Source of the DNA: Alphaproteobacteria bacterium
GTDB lineage: Bacteria > Pseudomonadota > Alphaproteobacteria > Rickettsiales > UBA1997
Assembly: GCA_030835905.1 (NCBI GenBank)
Contig: JAURQX010000049.1
Span: 1 to 35,946, forward strand
Reading direction: 5' to 3'
DNA length: 35,946 bases
The notes beneath the pieces are model-generated. The model searched no databases and was not told the origin of the DNA. It saw only the letters and a list, made by a program, of their open reading frames with translations. The position numbers and the translations under genes were made by a program. Below are positions 4,619-35,946 of the stretch, in pieces. How positions within the stretch are numbered: position 1 is the first letter of the stretch; each line of letters opens with the position of its first letter.

Positions 4619-4951
4619 TCACTTTTTAAAAGGTTTTGGATCGAAATGATTTTCAAATTTATTTTTAACACCATCAAATTCCTTAGCCTCAGGCAACGCA
4701 TCTTTTTTCTTAGTAATCACTGGCCATTTCTTAGCATATTCACGATTAATCTCAACCCATTTCAATAAGTTTTCGCTTTCAGGAAAAATAGCTTCAGCTG
4801 GACACTCGGGTACGCAAACCCCGCAGTCAATACATTCGTCAGGGTCAATTACTAGCATATTTTCACCCTCATAAAAACAATCAACTGGACACACCTCAAC
4901 GCAGTCGGTATATTTGCATTTAACGCAATTATCAGTTACTACATAAGTCAT
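4619..4951 (-). CDS. fdxA: 7Fe ferredoxin (3Fe-4S/4Fe-4S)
   Basis: This is a soluble electron carrier of the FdxA type, 110 residues. The N-terminal cysteines C9, C17 and C50 fit the 3Fe-4S site. C21, C40, C43 and C46 fit the 4Fe-4S site ([12 protein letters not shown]). The pattern and the C-terminal helical extension (about 60-110) are typical of alphaproteobacterial FdxA. It is not the [2Fe-2S] ferredoxin of the isc operon. Its ATG overlaps the ccmC stop as ATGA, so translation is coupled. It ends in TGA, evidence that TGA is a stop here. Confidence 0.95.
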
Positions 4952-5661
4952 TTTGTTTGTAAATTAGTTAACTTAATTTTCATAATTTCGGTTTTTACTC
5001 TAATTAAAGATAAAAACACAAAAAAACAAAAATACACTCCAAACATTAAAAGCAAAGGTTTTAACATTGATTCGTGAATTGCCAAACCGCCACTGCGAAT
5101 TATACTTGCTGGCTGATGTAGTGAGTTCCAATATTCCACTGAAAATTTAATCAAAGGCACATTGATAAAGCCTGCAATCGACAAAATCGCGGCGATTTTT
5201 TCACCTTTTTCTTGATCGTCAAAAGAATCAATTAAAATTATATAACCAAGATAAAGAAAAAATAAAATTAAAACCGAAGTCATACGTGCATCCCACGCCC
5301 ACCAAGTGCCCCAAATTGGTTTACCCCACAAGCTTCCAGTTATTAAAGTTATGGCGGTAAAAACAGTGCCGATCAAAGCTATTGATTTGGCAATTATGTA
5401 AAAAAATCGATTTTTCCAAATAAAGCCAGAAATGTTGAAAATGGCCATTATAGTGTAGATTAAAAGTGACATCCAAGCTGCCGGCACATGCACATACATA
5501 ATTTTAACAGCATTTCCTTGCTGATAATCATCTGGTGAATTAAGAATGGCAGGAACTGCTAGTGCCAAGAAAATAGCCAGACAAGCTAAGGAAAATGGCA
5601 AAAATAGGCGAAAATTTTGCTCAAAATTTTGAAATTTGAATAAAGATTTAAATGGAACCAT
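4948..5661 (-). CDS. ccmC: Haem exporter protein CcmC
   Basis: CcmC is an inner-membrane protein of cytochrome c maturation system I that presents haem to CcmE. It has 237 residues and six predicted membrane helices. The signature tryptophan-rich periplasmic motif [10 protein letters not shown] is at 117-126. The two flanking haem-ligand histidines are H58 (VHVPAAW) and H182 (SLHQPAS). It overlaps the ferredoxin start by 4 bp. Other ccm genes are not in the window; scattered ccm genes are usual in Rickettsiales. Upstream lies the DUF559/inverted-repeat element, whose left repeat is about 60 bp from the start codon. Confidence 0.96.
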
Positions 5662-5722
5662 TGTAATAAAATACTAATTTTTCTAAATTTTTAATAATTT
5701 GTAGAGGTCTTGTTTAAAAAAT

Positions 5723-5792
5723 CTTAAAAACTCCGAATTCCTTAAGACATACACCTAAGCCCCTGCGGGGCACCCCTCTAGAAGAGGGGAAT
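5723..5792 (+). repeat. Left inverted repeat with two GC-rich hairpins (stop-containing version)
   Basis: The repeat contains two successive hairpins, GCCCC-TGC-GGGGC and CCCCTCT-AGA-AGAGGGG. Its GC-rich core stands out strongly against the AT-rich background. This copy carries ACACCTAAG, which would read Thr-stop in the frame used by the gene-fused copies. It could also terminate transcription of the DUF559 gene, which ends 5 bp away at 5797. Confidence 0.85.
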
Positions 5793-5796
5793 GGCC

Positions 5797-6309
5797 TCAG
5801 TAATTTTCTTTAATAAATGACATTAAGCCTTCAATAACCTCGCTTAGATTATTTTTTACTTCAAAATCGGTAATTCTAAAAATTTTTAAACCAAAAGATT
5901 TAAGATAAGCTTCTCGTTTTTGATCATATTCAATTTTGTCTTCATGTGAAGATCCATCTATTTCAACTATCAACCCTAAAGATTTAACAAAAAAGTCGAC
6001 GATATAGTCACCAACGATTTTTTGGCGGTCAAAATCAAGTCCCAAGATTTTTTTGTTTTTGACTTGCTGCCAAATTAGTACTTCTGATAAATTGCCAGAT
6101 TTTCTGAGGTTTTTGGCTTTTTCTCTAAGATTTATATTTTTTGGCAAAGATTTGTAACCATTATAGGTTAAATTCCCCTCTTCTAGAGGGGTGCCCCGCA
6201 GGGGCGGGGTGTATGTCTTAAGGAATTCGGAGTTTTTAAGAGGGGTGCCCCGCAGGGGCGGGGTGTATGTCTTAACAAGCTCTATATTATTTAAAAGATT
6301 TTTATCCAT
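5797..6309 (-). CDS. DUF559 (Vsr/PD-(D/E)XK-like) endonuclease-domain protein with repeat-encoded N-terminus
   Basis: This is a 170-residue protein whose residues about 66-165 form a DUF559 domain. Family landmarks are LSEVLIW (E76), YIVDFF (D105), VEIDGSSH (E116, D118, H122) and YDQKREAYL, a PD-(D/E)XK-type nuclease core related to Vsr. Residues 13-24 and 31-42 are two identical copies of KTYTPPLRGTPL, translated from the GC-rich repeat copies. They are not part of the nuclease fold. The long start is ATG at 6309. An in-frame TTG at about codon 55, after the repeats, could be the original start. The domain call is firm; the biological role of DUF559 proteins is unknown. The linkage to flanking repeats suggests a role in spreading them. 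Confidence 0.82.
   Translation of the reverse strand: MDKNLLNNIELVKTYTPPLRGTPLKNSEFLKTYTPPLRGTPLEEGNLTYNGYKSLPKNINLREKAKNLRKSGNLSEVLIWQQVKNKKILGLDFDRQKIVGDYIVDFFVKSLGLIVEIDGSSHEDKIEYDQKREAYLKSFGLKIFRITDFEVKNNLSEVIEGLMSFIKENY
6172..6240 (-). repeat. Right inverted repeat, in frame inside the DUF559 gene
   Basis: This is the mirror copy of 5723-5792. It has ACACCCCGCCCC where the left copy has ACACCTAAGCCCC, so it lacks the TAA and is translated as KTYTPPLRGTPL within the nuclease gene. Confidence 0.85.
6241..6275 (-). repeat. Third, partial copy of the GC-rich repeat, tandem to the right repeat
   Basis: This copy covers the section from CTTAAGACATACACC-type sequence to CACCCCT and abuts the full right copy. 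It has the stop-free CCG version and encodes the first KTYTPPLRGTPL of the DUF559 protein. Confidence 0.8.
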
Positions 6310-6372: not shown

Positions 6373-7617
6373 TTAACCAAAAAATTGCAATAAATTCTCA
6401 AGCTTAACTTTTTGTTCTTGGCCATTATCAAGATTTTTAACTACTAATTCCTTGGTTTTTGCCTCGTCTTCGCCGATAATAACAGCAAATTGACAGTTTT
6501 TTTGGGCGAGCTTTTTCATTTGTCTTTTAAAATTGCCAGCAAAGCTAAAATCAACTAAAAAACCATTTTTTCGTAAATTTTGAGCGATTTCAAAAGCTAA
6601 AAATTTCTCATTTTCTGAAATATAATTAATGGCAATTGCTCTATTTTCGACTAATTTAATTTCACTCATCAGCATCAGCCTTTCAACGCCAGCAGCAAAG
6701 CCAATAGCTGGTACATCTTTACCTGACATTTTTTCAACCAAATTATCATAGCGACCTCCGGCAAGTACGGTATTTTGGGCGCCATCATGATTGTTTACAA
6801 ATTCAAAAACCAAACCAGTGTAATAATCTAGGCCACGCACTAAATTTGAATCTAATTCAAATTTTACGCCAAATTTTTGTAAAAGATTGATAATATTTTC
6901 AAGATTTTGCTTAGCTTCGTCACTATAAAATTGAGTAATCTTGGGAGCGCTAGCAAATAGTTTTTGATCATTTTTATCTTTTGAATCAAGAATTCTTAAA
7001 GGATTTTTGGCTAAACGATTTTTTGAATCGTCAGATAGCTCGCTTGCATATTTTGCAAAATAATCTTTCAAAGCTATTTCAAAATTTGTTTTGCTTAGTG
7101 CATCTCCTAAATGATTAATTTTTAAAGAAACTTGATCTAAAATAGCTAATTTTTGTAAAATTGCCTGTGCTAAAAGCAAAATCTCAACATCGCAGTAAAA
7201 ATTTTCAGCGCCAAAAACTTCATAATTTACTTGATGAAACTGTCTTTGCCTGCCTTTTTGAGGGCGATCATAACGAAAAACTGGACCATAAGAAAAGAAT
7301 TTTTGTGGTAGAGTTTGACTTAATTCACCATTGCTGACAAAGCTCCTCACAATACTGGCCGTGAATTCTGGTCTCAGGGTTAAAAAATTATCGGAGCGAT
7401 CTAAAAATTTATAAACTTCTTTAGTTAAAATATCGCTATCTTCACCTAAATTTCTTTCAAAAATCTCGCTAAATTCAAAAATTGGCGTTTGTAATTCACT
7501 AAAGCCATAGTTTTTAGCAGAATTTTTAGCAATTTCGATAACTTTATTAAATTTATATAGCTCTTCGCCAAATAAATCCTTTGTGCCACGCACTGCTTGT
7601 AATTTGTGATCTGACAT
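6373..7617 (-). CDS. hisS: Histidyl-tRNA synthetase
   Basis: This class II aminoacyl-tRNA synthetase charges tRNA-His. The 414 residues include motif 2 (VFRYDRPQKGRQRQFHQVNYEVFG, split as residues 113-125 and 126-136), the HisA motif LVRGLDYYTG at 259-268, and motif 3 (AGGRYDNL and GFAAGVERL, about 286-313). The C-terminal about 90 residues are the anticodon-binding domain. The start MSDHKLQAVRGTKD is family-typical. It stands alone between the DUF559 element (about 60 bp away) and the ankyrin gene. Length is normal and all key residues are present. Confidence 0.97.
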   Translation of the reverse strand: MSDHKLQAVRGTKDLFGEELYKFNKVIEIAKNSAKNYGFSELQTPIFEFSEIFERNLGEDSDILTKEVYKFLDRSDNFLTLRPEFTASIVRSFVSNGELSQTLPQKFFSYGPVFRYDRPQKGRQRQFHQVNYEVFGAENFYCDVEILLLAQAILQKLAILDQVSLKINHLGDALSKTNFEIALKDYFAKYASELSDDSKNRLAKNPLRILDSKDKNDQKLFASAPKITQFYSDEAKQNLENIINLLQKFGVKFELDSNLVRGLDYYTGLVFEFVNNHDGAQNTVLAGGRYDNLVEKMSGKDVPAIGFAAGVERLMLMSEIKLVENRAIAINYISENEKFLAFEIAQNLRKNGFLVDFSFAGNFKRQMKKLAQKNCQFAVIIGEDEAKTKELVVKNLDNGQEQKVKLENLLQFFG

Positions 7618-8336: not shown

Positions 8337-8438
8337 CAATATTCGTCTTTAATAACACATTTGTATTTTGTCTTTTTGGTCTAAAATATTTCCCCTAAAG
8401 TGGTTGATTTGCAGGAGTCTTTTAAAGACGAATGTTGG
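8337..8438. repeat. MITE-like palindromic element with GGTATT end
   Basis: Terminal arms at 8337-8352 and 8422-8438 pair (15 of 16 bases) and contain ATTCGTCTTTAA. The interior resembles the left half of the element at 27827-27998 (ACACATTTG, then TTTGTCTTTTT). It also carries the 20-mer GGTTGATTTGCAGGAGTCTT (8402-8421), which recurs near 76-95 and, inverted, near 35798-35818. The right end runs into GGTATTAGAT as in the 27.8-kb copy. The rest of the 8300-8569 spacer holds nothing else I can name. Confidence 0.65.
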
Positions 8439-19642: not shown

Positions 19643-19676
19643 AAGTCTAATAAATCAAGTCTTGAGTTTGCTGAGG

Positions 19677-19721
19677 CTTACACCTAAGCCCCTGCGGGGC
19701 ACCGCTCTAGAAGAGGGGAAT
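19677..19721 (+). repeat. Solo copy of the DUF559-associated GC-rich repeat
   Basis: It matches the left repeat of the DUF559 module (5748-5792) nearly base for base from TACACCTAAGCCCC to GAAGAGGGGAAT, with one G for C in the second hairpin (ACCGCTCTAGAAGAGGGG). Like the left copy it has the TAAG form. No nuclease gene is adjacent. It lies in the 134-bp spacer between the MNT gene and pheS and may act as a terminator. Confidence 0.85.
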
Positions 19722-19776
19722 TTAATATCGTAATTATAATATTTTAAAGAAAAAACTAAAAGAAAGAACCAAAACA

Positions 19777-20808
19777 ATGAAGCAAAAAATCACTGAAATT
19801 AGTCAAAATTTTGCGCAAGAAATTGCCAAAATCTCTTCTTTAAATGATCTTGAAAATATCCGCATCAAATTTTTAGGCAAAAAAAGCGCCATCAACGATC
19901 TTTTTGGCGAACTTAAAAATTTAGCAAATGATGAAAAAAGGGAAGCGGGGGCAGTAATAAATGAATTAAGAGCTGAAATCACTCAAAAAATTACTGATCT
20001 TAAAGAAAAATTAGAAATTAGCGAAATCAATAAAAAGCTCGAAAATGAGAAAATAGATCTAACTTTGCCAGCGAGAGCTGAATTTAAAGGCTATTTGCAT
20101 CCGCTGACCAAAGTTAAGGCTGAGGTTAAAGTGATTTTACAAGATTTGGGTTTTGAATTTGCTGACGGGCCTGAAGTTGAAGATGATTTTCATAATTTTA
20201 GTGCGCTAAATATTCCCAAAGATCATCCAGCAAGGCAAATGCAAGATACTTTTTATCTTAAAAACTCTGAAATGCTGCTTAGAACCCACACTTCAAACAC
20301 GCAAATTCGTAAAATGTTAAGTTCAAAACCACCCATGCAAATTGCTTCTTTAGGGCGAGTTTTTCGTTGCGATTCTGACAAAACGCACACGCCAATGTTT
20401 CATCAAGTTGAAGGCTTTGCAGTTGGTGAAAATATCACCATGGGCAATTTAAAATGGGTTTTAGAAAATTTCTTGCAAAGATTTTTTGAAAGCAAAAATG
20501 TTGAACTAAGATTTCGCCCGAGCTTTTTTCCTTTTACCGAACCATCGGCGGAAGTAGATATTAATTACTCAATTGATCAACAAAATAGAATTATTATTGG
20601 TAAAGGTGATAAATTTATGGAGATTTTAGGTTGTGGCATGATTCATCCTAATGTGCTTAAAAATTGCCAAATTGATGCTGATAAAAATCAAGGCTTTGCC
20701 TTTGGTATCGGCATTGAAAGACTTGCCATGTTAAAATATGGCATTAATGATTTGCGCCTGTTTTTTGAAAATGATATCAGATTTTTACAGCATTATGGTT
20801 TTAATTAA
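19777..20808 (+). CDS. pheS: Phenylalanyl-tRNA synthetase alpha subunit
   Basis: PheS is the catalytic subunit of the heterotetrameric PheRS. The 343 residues have an N-terminal coiled coil (about 1-85) and a class II catalytic core. Motif 2 is VFRCDSDKTHTPMFHQVEGF and motif 3 is FGIGIERLAMLKYGI, with ILGCGMIHPNVL in between. The gene is intact and of normal length. pheT does not follow directly; instead a 162-bp inverted-repeat element begins at the last base of the pheS stop codon and a divergent-strand gene lies beyond. PheT must be encoded elsewhere. Confidence 0.97.
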   Translation: MKQKITEISQNFAQEIAKISSLNDLENIRIKFLGKKSAINDLFGELKNLANDEKREAGAVINELRAEITQKITDLKEKLEISEINKKLENEKIDLTLPARAEFKGYLHPLTKVKAEVKVILQDLGFEFADGPEVEDDFHNFSALNIPKDHPARQMQDTFYLKNSEMLLRTHTSNTQIRKMLSSKPPMQIASLGRVFRCDSDKTHTPMFHQVEGFAVGENITMGNLKWVLENFLQRFFESKNVELRFRPSFFPFTEPSAEVDINYSIDQQNRIIIGKGDKFMEILGCGMIHPNVLKNCQIDADKNQGFAFGIGIERLAMLKYGINDLRLFFENDIRFLQHYGFN

Positions 20809-20969
20809 TACCAAATCCCATCTATAATTCCATATAGATACAGAGTATTTTAAGGGAAAAATTATTAGAAAATTTAGCCTTGTATCTTGATATACATGGC
20901 TAAATTTTATGATGATTTTTAACTAAAAAGACGAAGTAGATATATGGAATTATAGACGGGACTTGGTAT
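20808..20969. mobile_element. 162-bp MITE-like element with 29-bp terminal inverted repeats
   Basis: Left end 20808-20836 and right end 20941-20969 are inverted copies agreeing at 27 of 29 positions, starting ATACCAAATCCCATC. There is no coding capacity. The terminal sequence recurs as a compact hairpin at 31631-31668, and its first eight bases (ATACCAAA) also begin the element at 27827. It touches the last base of the pheS stop codon and may double as its terminator. I cannot fix a target duplication; AT-rich TA/ATA bases flank both ends. Confidence 0.75.
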
Positions 20970-27826: not shown

Positions 27827-27998
27827 ATACCAAAATTTATCTTTATCACACATTTGGACTTTGTCTTTTTAGTCTAAAATTTAAGAAAAACGAATGTAAT
27901 ATATCTATATTCTATAAGGCTTTTCTTTAATTTTATCCAAAAAGATGAAGAATATGGGGTTAATTTACTATAGTTTATCTAAAGATAAATTTTGGTAT
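27827..27998. mobile_element. 172-bp MITE-like element with perfect 19-bp terminal inverted repeats
   Basis: Ends 27827-27845 and 27980-27998 are perfect inverted copies beginning ATACCAAAATTTATC. From 27875 onward it is nearly the same as 30043-30160. Its left half resembles the repeat at 8337-8438. It is non-coding and fills most of the mrcA-glmS spacer. An apparent 67-codon frame at 27727-27930 runs through it and is rejected. Confidence 0.75.
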
Positions 27999-29883: not shown

Positions 29884-30042
29884 ATTTAATTCAACTGCTT
29901 TGAATATTTATAAATGATACTAATTATCTCAGTTAACTAGACACTGTTAACAAAGGTTATTTTTCTAAATTTTAGATCAAAAAGATAAGGCCTTTACCAA
30001 ATCCGATTTTTAGATAACCAATATTCAAAATATTTTTGAGAT

Positions 30043-30160
30043 AAAATTTAAGAAAAACGAATGTGATATATCCATATTTCATGAGGCTTTTCTTCAATTT
30101 TATCCAAAAAGATGAAGAATATGGGTTAATTTACTAAAGTGTATCTAAAGATTGGTATTA
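30043..30160. repeat. Second copy of the right two-thirds of the 27.8-kb MITE
   Basis: It matches 27875-27999 from TAAAATTTAAGAAAAACG to GGTATTA, with scattered substitutions and a deletion near the right end (AAGATTGGTATT against AAGATAAATTTTGGTATT). The left end differs. The rest of the 29884-30186 spacer has a weak inverted repeat around GGTTAT (29962) and GATAACC (30013) and no gene. Confidence 0.75.
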
Positions 30161-31544: not shown

Positions 31545-31630
31545 CCTGCTGTAAACCTAATTGGTGCCATAATTCTAATGATAATGGCTTTTGAAATGCT
31601 TAAAATATAGAAATAGTATAATAAACACTC

Positions 31631-31662
31631 AATCCCATCTATATAGAATTATAGATGGGATT
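31631..31662. terminator. Perfect 13-bp hairpin between converging mntP and RNase E genes
   Basis: Arms 31631-31643 (AATCCCATCTATA) and 31650-31662 pair around TAGAAT. It lies between convergent genes and fits a bidirectional terminator. The segment 31646-31668 equals the inverted terminal sequence of the MITE at 20808, so this is probably a collapsed remnant of that element. Confidence 0.7.
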
Positions 31663-31680
31663 TGGTATAATTTATTTATC

Positions 31681-35797: not shown

Positions 35798-35946
35798 AGA
35801 CCCCTAGCAAATCAATCAATTTTGAGGGAGATTTGATCAAGAAAAATGACCTAAACGGTCATTTTTATCATCAAATCGGCTATGACCGAACACCGATCCA
35901 ATGAAATTGGAGCGGGTGAATGGGGAGATTTGATCAAGAAAAATGA
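35798..35946. repeat. Palindromic repeats at the window edge, including a direct duplication
   Basis: 35798-35818 is the inverted form of the GGTTGATTTGCAGGGGTCTT motif found at 76-95. A hairpin at 35824-35882 has outer arms GATTTGAT/ATCAAATC and an inner perfect 10-bp stem (35842-35851 with 35857-35866). It is the inverted relative of 181-243. The 24 bases 35826-35849 recur exactly at 35923-35946, where the window ends, so a further unit begins 97 bp on. Confidence 0.75.

Follow-up and report, generated by a model that had tools for sequence, protein, structure and literature searches.

REP palindromes have been sorted into two superfamilies, GTAG and CGTC, the latter including RPE-4 and RPE-6 of Rickettsia (Di Nocera et al. 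2013, PMC3733652). No dedicated transposase seems to exist for the CGTC REPs, among which are palindromic elements that Rickettsia carries within genes (PMC3733652). EDxHD enzymes are counted among the homing endonucleases that drive the mobility of their own genes (PMC3943268). An earlier note on the present DNA described the nuclease family DUF559 as lacking an assigned role, which holds in general, with the exception of Caulobacter VsrA, a DUF559 protein for which a role in very-short-patch repair was proposed in 2026; VsrA has a genetic link to a cytosine methyltransferase, and T:G mismatches are its proposed substrate (PMC12907096). Among open-access papers, none was found that links DUF559 to palindromic repeats, and prior work may exist.

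Here, we analyze a DUF559 gene enclosed by inverted hairpin repeats in a stretch of 35,946 nucleotides (the window), which lies in contig C33 of a Rickettsiales metagenome-assembled genome of 1.25 Mb in 57 contigs, 87.8% complete. At a probability of about 0.6, we read the DUF559 gene and its repeats as a minimal selfish nuclease-encoding element that works in a REP/RAYT-like manner with a homing-type enzyme, the solo repeats being its non-autonomous forms.

The Element in the Window

Table 1. Coordinates of the DUF559 element, its repeats, and its neighbors in the window (hp1 and hp2, the two hairpins of a repeat).
Feature	Position	Strand	Evidence and remarks
Inverted two-hairpin repeat, 3' side of DUF559 gene	5722..5792	-	Sequence self-comparison, genome repeat search, folding; hp1 5773-5789, hp2 5759-5770, 34-bp outer arm 5722-5755
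DUF559 (PF04480) nuclease ORF, 170 aa	5797..6309	-	Profile match; domain at residues 61-166
Two-hairpin repeat, 5' side of DUF559 gene, within the called ORF	6168..6241	+	hp1 6175-6191, hp2 6194-6205
Third repeat copy, partial, tandem	6239..6275	+	hp2 and tag, no full hp1; 100% identical to 6185-6221
Solo repeat, partly decayed, intergenic before pheS	19674..19725	-	94-97% identity
ccmC-like gene flanking the element	4948..5661	-	Directly joined to hisS in sibling genome G040
hisS, other flank of the element	6373..7617	-	Context marker for the unfilled site

Near-identical inverted repeats had been described around the nuclease, and the two copies that enclose it are indeed inverted, with 96% identity over 71 bases (Table 1). 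Each copy is made of two perfect 34-bp blocks (5722-5755/6208-6241 and 5759-5792/6172-6205), separated by a short mismatched stretch. The partial third copy reported at the right end was also recovered: it lies in tandem, 54 bp on, and is identical over 37 bp. Of the two GC-rich hairpins ascribed to every repeat, both form when the right-hand copy is folded as single-stranded DNA (z -4.8, with 0 of 200 shuffles as good); the left copy folds less strongly (z -2.5). The solo copy is present where it had been placed, but it has decayed and shows no clear fold (z -1.6).

Between the inverted repeats, the only sizeable ORF is DUF559. The ORF, as called, starts upstream of both right-hand repeats and reads through both in frame; thus, these repeats lie within the ORF, and much of its N-terminal part is repeat-encoded. 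The window repeats are oriented '<>' around the gene, as read from the sequence. The window copy is therefore atypical, since its repeats face the opposite way from those of the usual '><' element (described below); the unit that holds its gene may have been rearranged. Neither a target-site duplication nor an exact insertion boundary was identified at the window site, where insertion boundaries are hard to place.

The window holds further repeats. A 78-nt inverted repeat follows pheS (20802-20969), and its 38-bp arm (92%) is common to 31637-31674, within 31619-31674; this palindromic family has no visible relation to the DUF559 repeat. A direct repeat of 100 bp (87%), followed by one of 30 bp (93%), joins 27866-27986 to 30033-30152, and a 39-bp match connects 8349-8387 with 27842-27880. 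Near both contig ends, a 66-nt inverted repeat (184-249 and 35817-35882; 80%), with related short repeats inside the contig, possibly marks the points where the assembly stopped.

The DUF559 Enzyme

The ORF matches PF04480 with 96.4 bits (gathering cut-off 20.6; E 1e-27). Residues R21, E28, W32, R47, Q48, D57, E68, D70, H74, and D81 are invariant over 40 proteins, and the spacing of the active site equals that of Caulobacter VsrA apart from the last aspartate, before which the two differ by two residues. The predicted fold of the catalytic domain (pLDDT 91) has 3HRL as its best PDB match (E 1e-6), followed by the catalytic domain of the homing endonuclease I-Bth0305I (3R3P; E 2e-3, TM 0.63/0.77), with Vsr (1VSR) at rank 11. 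DUF559 has the Vsr-like fold together with the conserved E, D, H, and D active-site residues. Some DUF559 proteins, e.g., VsrA, may be housekeeping enzymes. A phage origin of the gene was considered and rejected, DUF559 relatives occurring in just 3 of 50,697 phage records.

DUF559 Loci across Phyla

Scanning named genomes yielded 80 DUF559 loci, from phyla that include Bacteroidota, Bacillota, Planctomycetota, Nitrospirota, Cyanobacteriota, Desulfobacterota-type groups, Pseudomonadota, Chloroflexota, and Patescibacteria; 75 loci, from over a dozen phyla, had enough flank for an inverted-repeat test. When an ungapped score of at least 16 across the domain was required, and placements elsewhere in the same loci served as controls, inverted repeats spanned the DUF559 domain in 49/75 loci versus 2/238 control placements, with no strong inverted repeat in the other 26. 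Inverted flanks are thus not peculiar to the window locus. Typical arms are AATTCCCCTCCnnnGGAGGGGTGCCCGAAGGGCGGGGTGGTT. Double hairpins on the same side were found in 42/90 cases, against 14/248 controls. The sequence of hp2 varies while its stem is kept, averaging 6.6 bp versus 3.8 bp in shuffles (108 distinct segments), a test whose p-value is inflated by related sequences. Repeats are oriented '><' in 21 of the 24 scorable loci and '>>' in the remaining three.

The association extends to several genomic settings. Other DUF559 genes from the family to which the window belongs bear different inverted palindromes, and plasmid or chromid copies of DUF559 in Sphingomonadales, Rhizobiales, and Cyanobacteriota have hairpins that look similar by eye. 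Repeat counts in other DUF559-bearing genomes reach 135, in G089, where the reversed pattern has 0 matches and the repeats form frequent inverted pairs with a spacing of about 113 bp. A Y1 transposase (PF01797) was not found in G089, nor in four further genomes (G083, G087, G093, and G094). At the Neisseria DUF559 locus, other hairpins flank the gene, and no obvious ATTCCC..GGGAAT repeat is seen there.

The ycjD gene of E. coli K-12 (L314, 1908-2261) is also a DUF559 gene. Most of its region is present in 3330/5426 genomes, and the neighboring palindrome matches a median of 4 places in each genome. No clean empty site was found for ycjD; two strains that lack the gene have a TetR/RND-pump cluster after fabI.

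In-Frame Cassettes inside Host Genes

In Rickettsiales relatives, DUF559 and its palindrome-coded flanking peptides lie, free of stop codons, inside the genes for ValRS, IleRS, LeuRS, and RecJ. Other hosts of such cassettes are HsdR (two loci), HsdS (two loci), a Type ISP enzyme, methylases, QueA, and an M14 peptidase, and one cassette opens a lipoyl-synthase-like frame. For instance, the LeuRS insert comprises query residues 249-457; in the alignment to E. coli LeuRS, its two flanks meet without a gap at residue 263, where the editing-domain stretch begins. In the alignment of ValRS to the T. thermophilus protein, the insert lies between residues 301 and 329. The element ends can be read in frame, and so, at the sequence level, some cassettes persist inside host genes. 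Two HsdR cassettes from two phyla (L086 and L103) occupy an identical site, as do two HsdS cassettes (L084 and L095), which would fit either preferred targets or old inheritance.

Repeats and Unfilled Sites in the Window Genome and Its Relatives

A 74-bp repeat query has 16 matches in the window genome, in about eight places, with E down to 4e-33; they fall on contigs C6, C18, C30, C33, C47, C49, and C52, and the genome encodes one DUF559 gene. CCCCGCAGGGGC occurs 14 times, against 0 for the reversed-pattern control. The pattern AGGGGTGN{8,14}CGGGGTG was found nine times in the window genome, once in G058, a member of the same GTDB family, and in 0/59 other genomes of that family, with zero matches in the reversed-pattern controls. 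The single match in G058 is 44 bp from its DUF559 domain. Chance duplication as the origin of the repeat is rejected by the genome matches, the zero reversed-pattern hits, and the counts at loci versus controls.

Arrays of the DUF559-type repeat with a spacer sequence in common stand at the end of contig C49 and at the start of C6. The assembly probably breaks at these arrays, and the copy number of the repeat may be underestimated.

Filled and empty sites could be compared, as the earlier note had proposed. In G040, a genome of the same genus, hisS and ccmC are a few bases apart, without element or repeat. In other genera of the family (L270, L271, L274, L276, L279, and L281), the hisS-ccmC order is kept, the spacing varies, and none of these intervals holds a DUF559 gene. 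Because the interval lacks DUF559 in G040 and in the other genera, a gain in the window lineage is the best reading of the element. Two more sites, recO/prepilin peptidase and rpsI/rpiB, carry the repeat in the window genome and lack it in G040. A contaminating contig is unlikely, hisS and ccmC having 67% and about 79% protein identity to those of G040, in the same order. The hisS-ccmC interval of L270 (genome G041) is occupied by another palindromic array (CCCTCTTTGAAAAAGAGGGTGGCATCGCACGAAGTGCGATGACGGGTGATT) and holds no DUF559 gene.

Copy Number and a Shared Site in Chryseobacterium

The relation between gene and repeat was followed in the genomes of 173 species of the Chryseobacterium genus group, taking E <= 1e-10 as a good DUF559 match. 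The median number of hairpin matches is 10 in genomes with DUF559 (n = 103), five of which have none, and about 2 in those without a good match (n = 70), 28 of which have none. DUF559 presence thus predicts repeat number (Mann-Whitney p = 5e-11, Fisher p = 1e-8, both uncorrected for shared ancestry), although 24 genomes have at least five repeats despite no good DUF559 match.

At one intergenic site shared among species, the distance between matched stretches is commonly about 690-760 bp in filled species and 130-280 bp in unfilled ones. In 8/10 unfilled species examined, the element position keeps one palindrome of the AATTCCCCTCCnnnGGAGGGGAATT type, which is either intact or degraded; in the other two, it is almost gone. 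DUF559 distances correlate with flank distances (Mantel r 0.65, p 0.003), which makes inheritance with repeated loss the simpler reading of this site. The single palindromes are more likely scars than insertion targets, and insertion into a palindromic target is the less favored explanation. The element occurs there in both orientations (L200 and L204 versus L203 and L195), through either inversion between the element ends or independent insertion.

A Proposed Mechanism and Its Rivals

In general terms, the element would consist of one small EDxHD/Vsr-fold nuclease bounded by inverted two-hairpin repeats, each built from an hp1 of the type CCCCTC..GAGGGG, an hp2 of variable sequence and kept stem, and a GGGGTG-type tag. 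Its spread may be rationalized into four steps. (i) The nuclease would recognize its own hairpin or palindrome, or a look-alike target, and nick or cut the DNA; we infer this step from the nuclease fold, the invariant active-site residues, and the hairpin structure, which is conserved. (ii) The host, by repair or replication, would copy the element, or a lone repeat, into the break in a homing- or REP-like manner, without a transposase. (iii) Single repeats and pairs, observed in their distribution, would be non-autonomous copies or remnants. (iv) Loss between two hp1 palindromes would leave one, a state seen at one Chryseobacterium site and presumably reached in that direction. Both the mobility of the element and the cleavage of its repeats by DUF559 are thus putative, and the cut-and-copy step specifically is less certain than the overall reading as a selfish element; none of the sites compared captured a transposition event. 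The selfish module suggested in the earlier note finds partial support in the dispersed copies, the unfilled sites, and the flanked loci, and none of the three outcomes by which that note would have dismissed it was obtained (a repeat as common in relatives lacking DUF559, a lack of empty sites, or inverted flanks confined to this locus). The '<>' orientation in the window and the decayed state of the solo copy depart from it. As to its further likening to REP/RAYT pairs with an unrelated enzyme, no Y1/RAYT-type transposase (PF01797) was found in the window genome (88% complete) or in sibling G040.

That the repeats move by other means, e.g., a Y1/RAYT transposase or replication slippage, with DUF559 as a passenger or tolerated nearby, seems unlikely. 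Many repeat-bearing Bacteroidota do encode Y1 transposases, and a good DUF559 match is missing from some repeat-rich genomes, but a Y1 transposase was found neither in the window genome nor in the most repeat-rich genome, G089; moreover, DUF559 and repeats are associated again and again across many phyla, with repeat sequences that differ, and the DUF559 active-site residues are invariant. Were DUF559 instead a repair nuclease of the very-short-patch type, and the hairpins ordinary terminators or mRNA-stabilizing structures, the genetics of VsrA (PMC12907096) and the presence of Vsr itself among the fold matches would be accounted for. However, long inverted repeats with dispersed copies are unexpected of terminators, terminators would not track the presence of the DUF559 gene, and in-frame repeats flank the nuclease domain on either side within LeuRS, HsdR, and further genes, all of which make this explanation quite improbable. 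We consider it very improbable that the nuclease is the effector of a defense or restriction system. Several in-frame cassettes do reside in restriction-modification genes, and there are weak PADLOC matches (E 4e-4 and worse), but the window element adjoins hisS and ccmC rather than defense genes, tRNA synthetases, RecJ, QueA, and a peptidase host cassettes as well, and palindromes bound the cassette inside those host genes.

The selfish-element reading, which we prefer, would make these units a family of very small selfish elements that has escaped notice, and DUF559 a candidate for the enzyme by which palindromic repeats spread. We propose more tentatively, as a possibility that is less likely than not, that DUF559 enzymes are the missing mobilizing enzymes of a large class of double-hairpin and CGTC-type repeats in bacteria, including the in-frame elements of Rickettsiales, acting by cutting and host copying in place of a transposase, at times within essential genes. 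DUF559, flanked across phyla by palindromes built broadly like CGTC REPs, is a concrete candidate for a class that apparently lacks a dedicated transposase (PMC3733652). If true, much of DUF559 would gain a role, a transposase-free kind of genomic parasite would be recognized, and the cassettes in LeuRS, ValRS, IleRS, and HsdR would help to explain how palindromes enter important coding sequence and persist there.

Comparison with Known Systems

Of the features of an insertion sequence, inverted repeats are present around one sizeable ORF, that of DUF559, but no target-site duplication is seen and the boundaries are hard to place. The DUF559 proteins 3HRL (NGO0050) and Caulobacter VsrA belong to the same Pfam family and share the fold, and differ in being known in free-standing form, with no repeat context reported for VsrA (PMC12907096).

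The partial likeness to CGTC REPs, described as a CGTC tag, a stem of 8-9 bp, a loop of 4-5 nt, and a CCA tail, lies in the hp2 units, mostly from Chryseobacterium, 76/108 of which have GAC at the end, read as CGTC on the opposite strand; 78/108 have a CCA-type tail, and 64/108 have both tag and tail. In-frame copies inside genes are a further shared feature. Compared by the published description, the window repeat differs in having CGCC for CGTC, and the stems and first base pairs differ as well.

With the REP/RAYT system (TnpA-REP, GTAG class), the element shares short GC-rich palindromes in many genomic copies, dispersed singly or often in inverted pairs, one enzyme gene standing between inverted copies of its own repeat, and a presumed non-autonomous spread. 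Unlike RAYT, an HUH tyrosine transposase, the enzyme here is a hydrolytic nuclease of the EDxHD/Vsr fold, each repeat has two hairpins, and the window repeat ends, by inspection, without a GTAG tag. The EDxHD homing endonuclease I-Bth0305I matches DUF559 in fold and in the type of active site, whereas DUF559 is bounded by hairpin repeats and, in the catalytic domain as modelled, has no recognized DNA-binding extension. By analogy, the element would resemble both REP/RAYT pairs and homing endonuclease genes in its working, and appears to be a member of neither.
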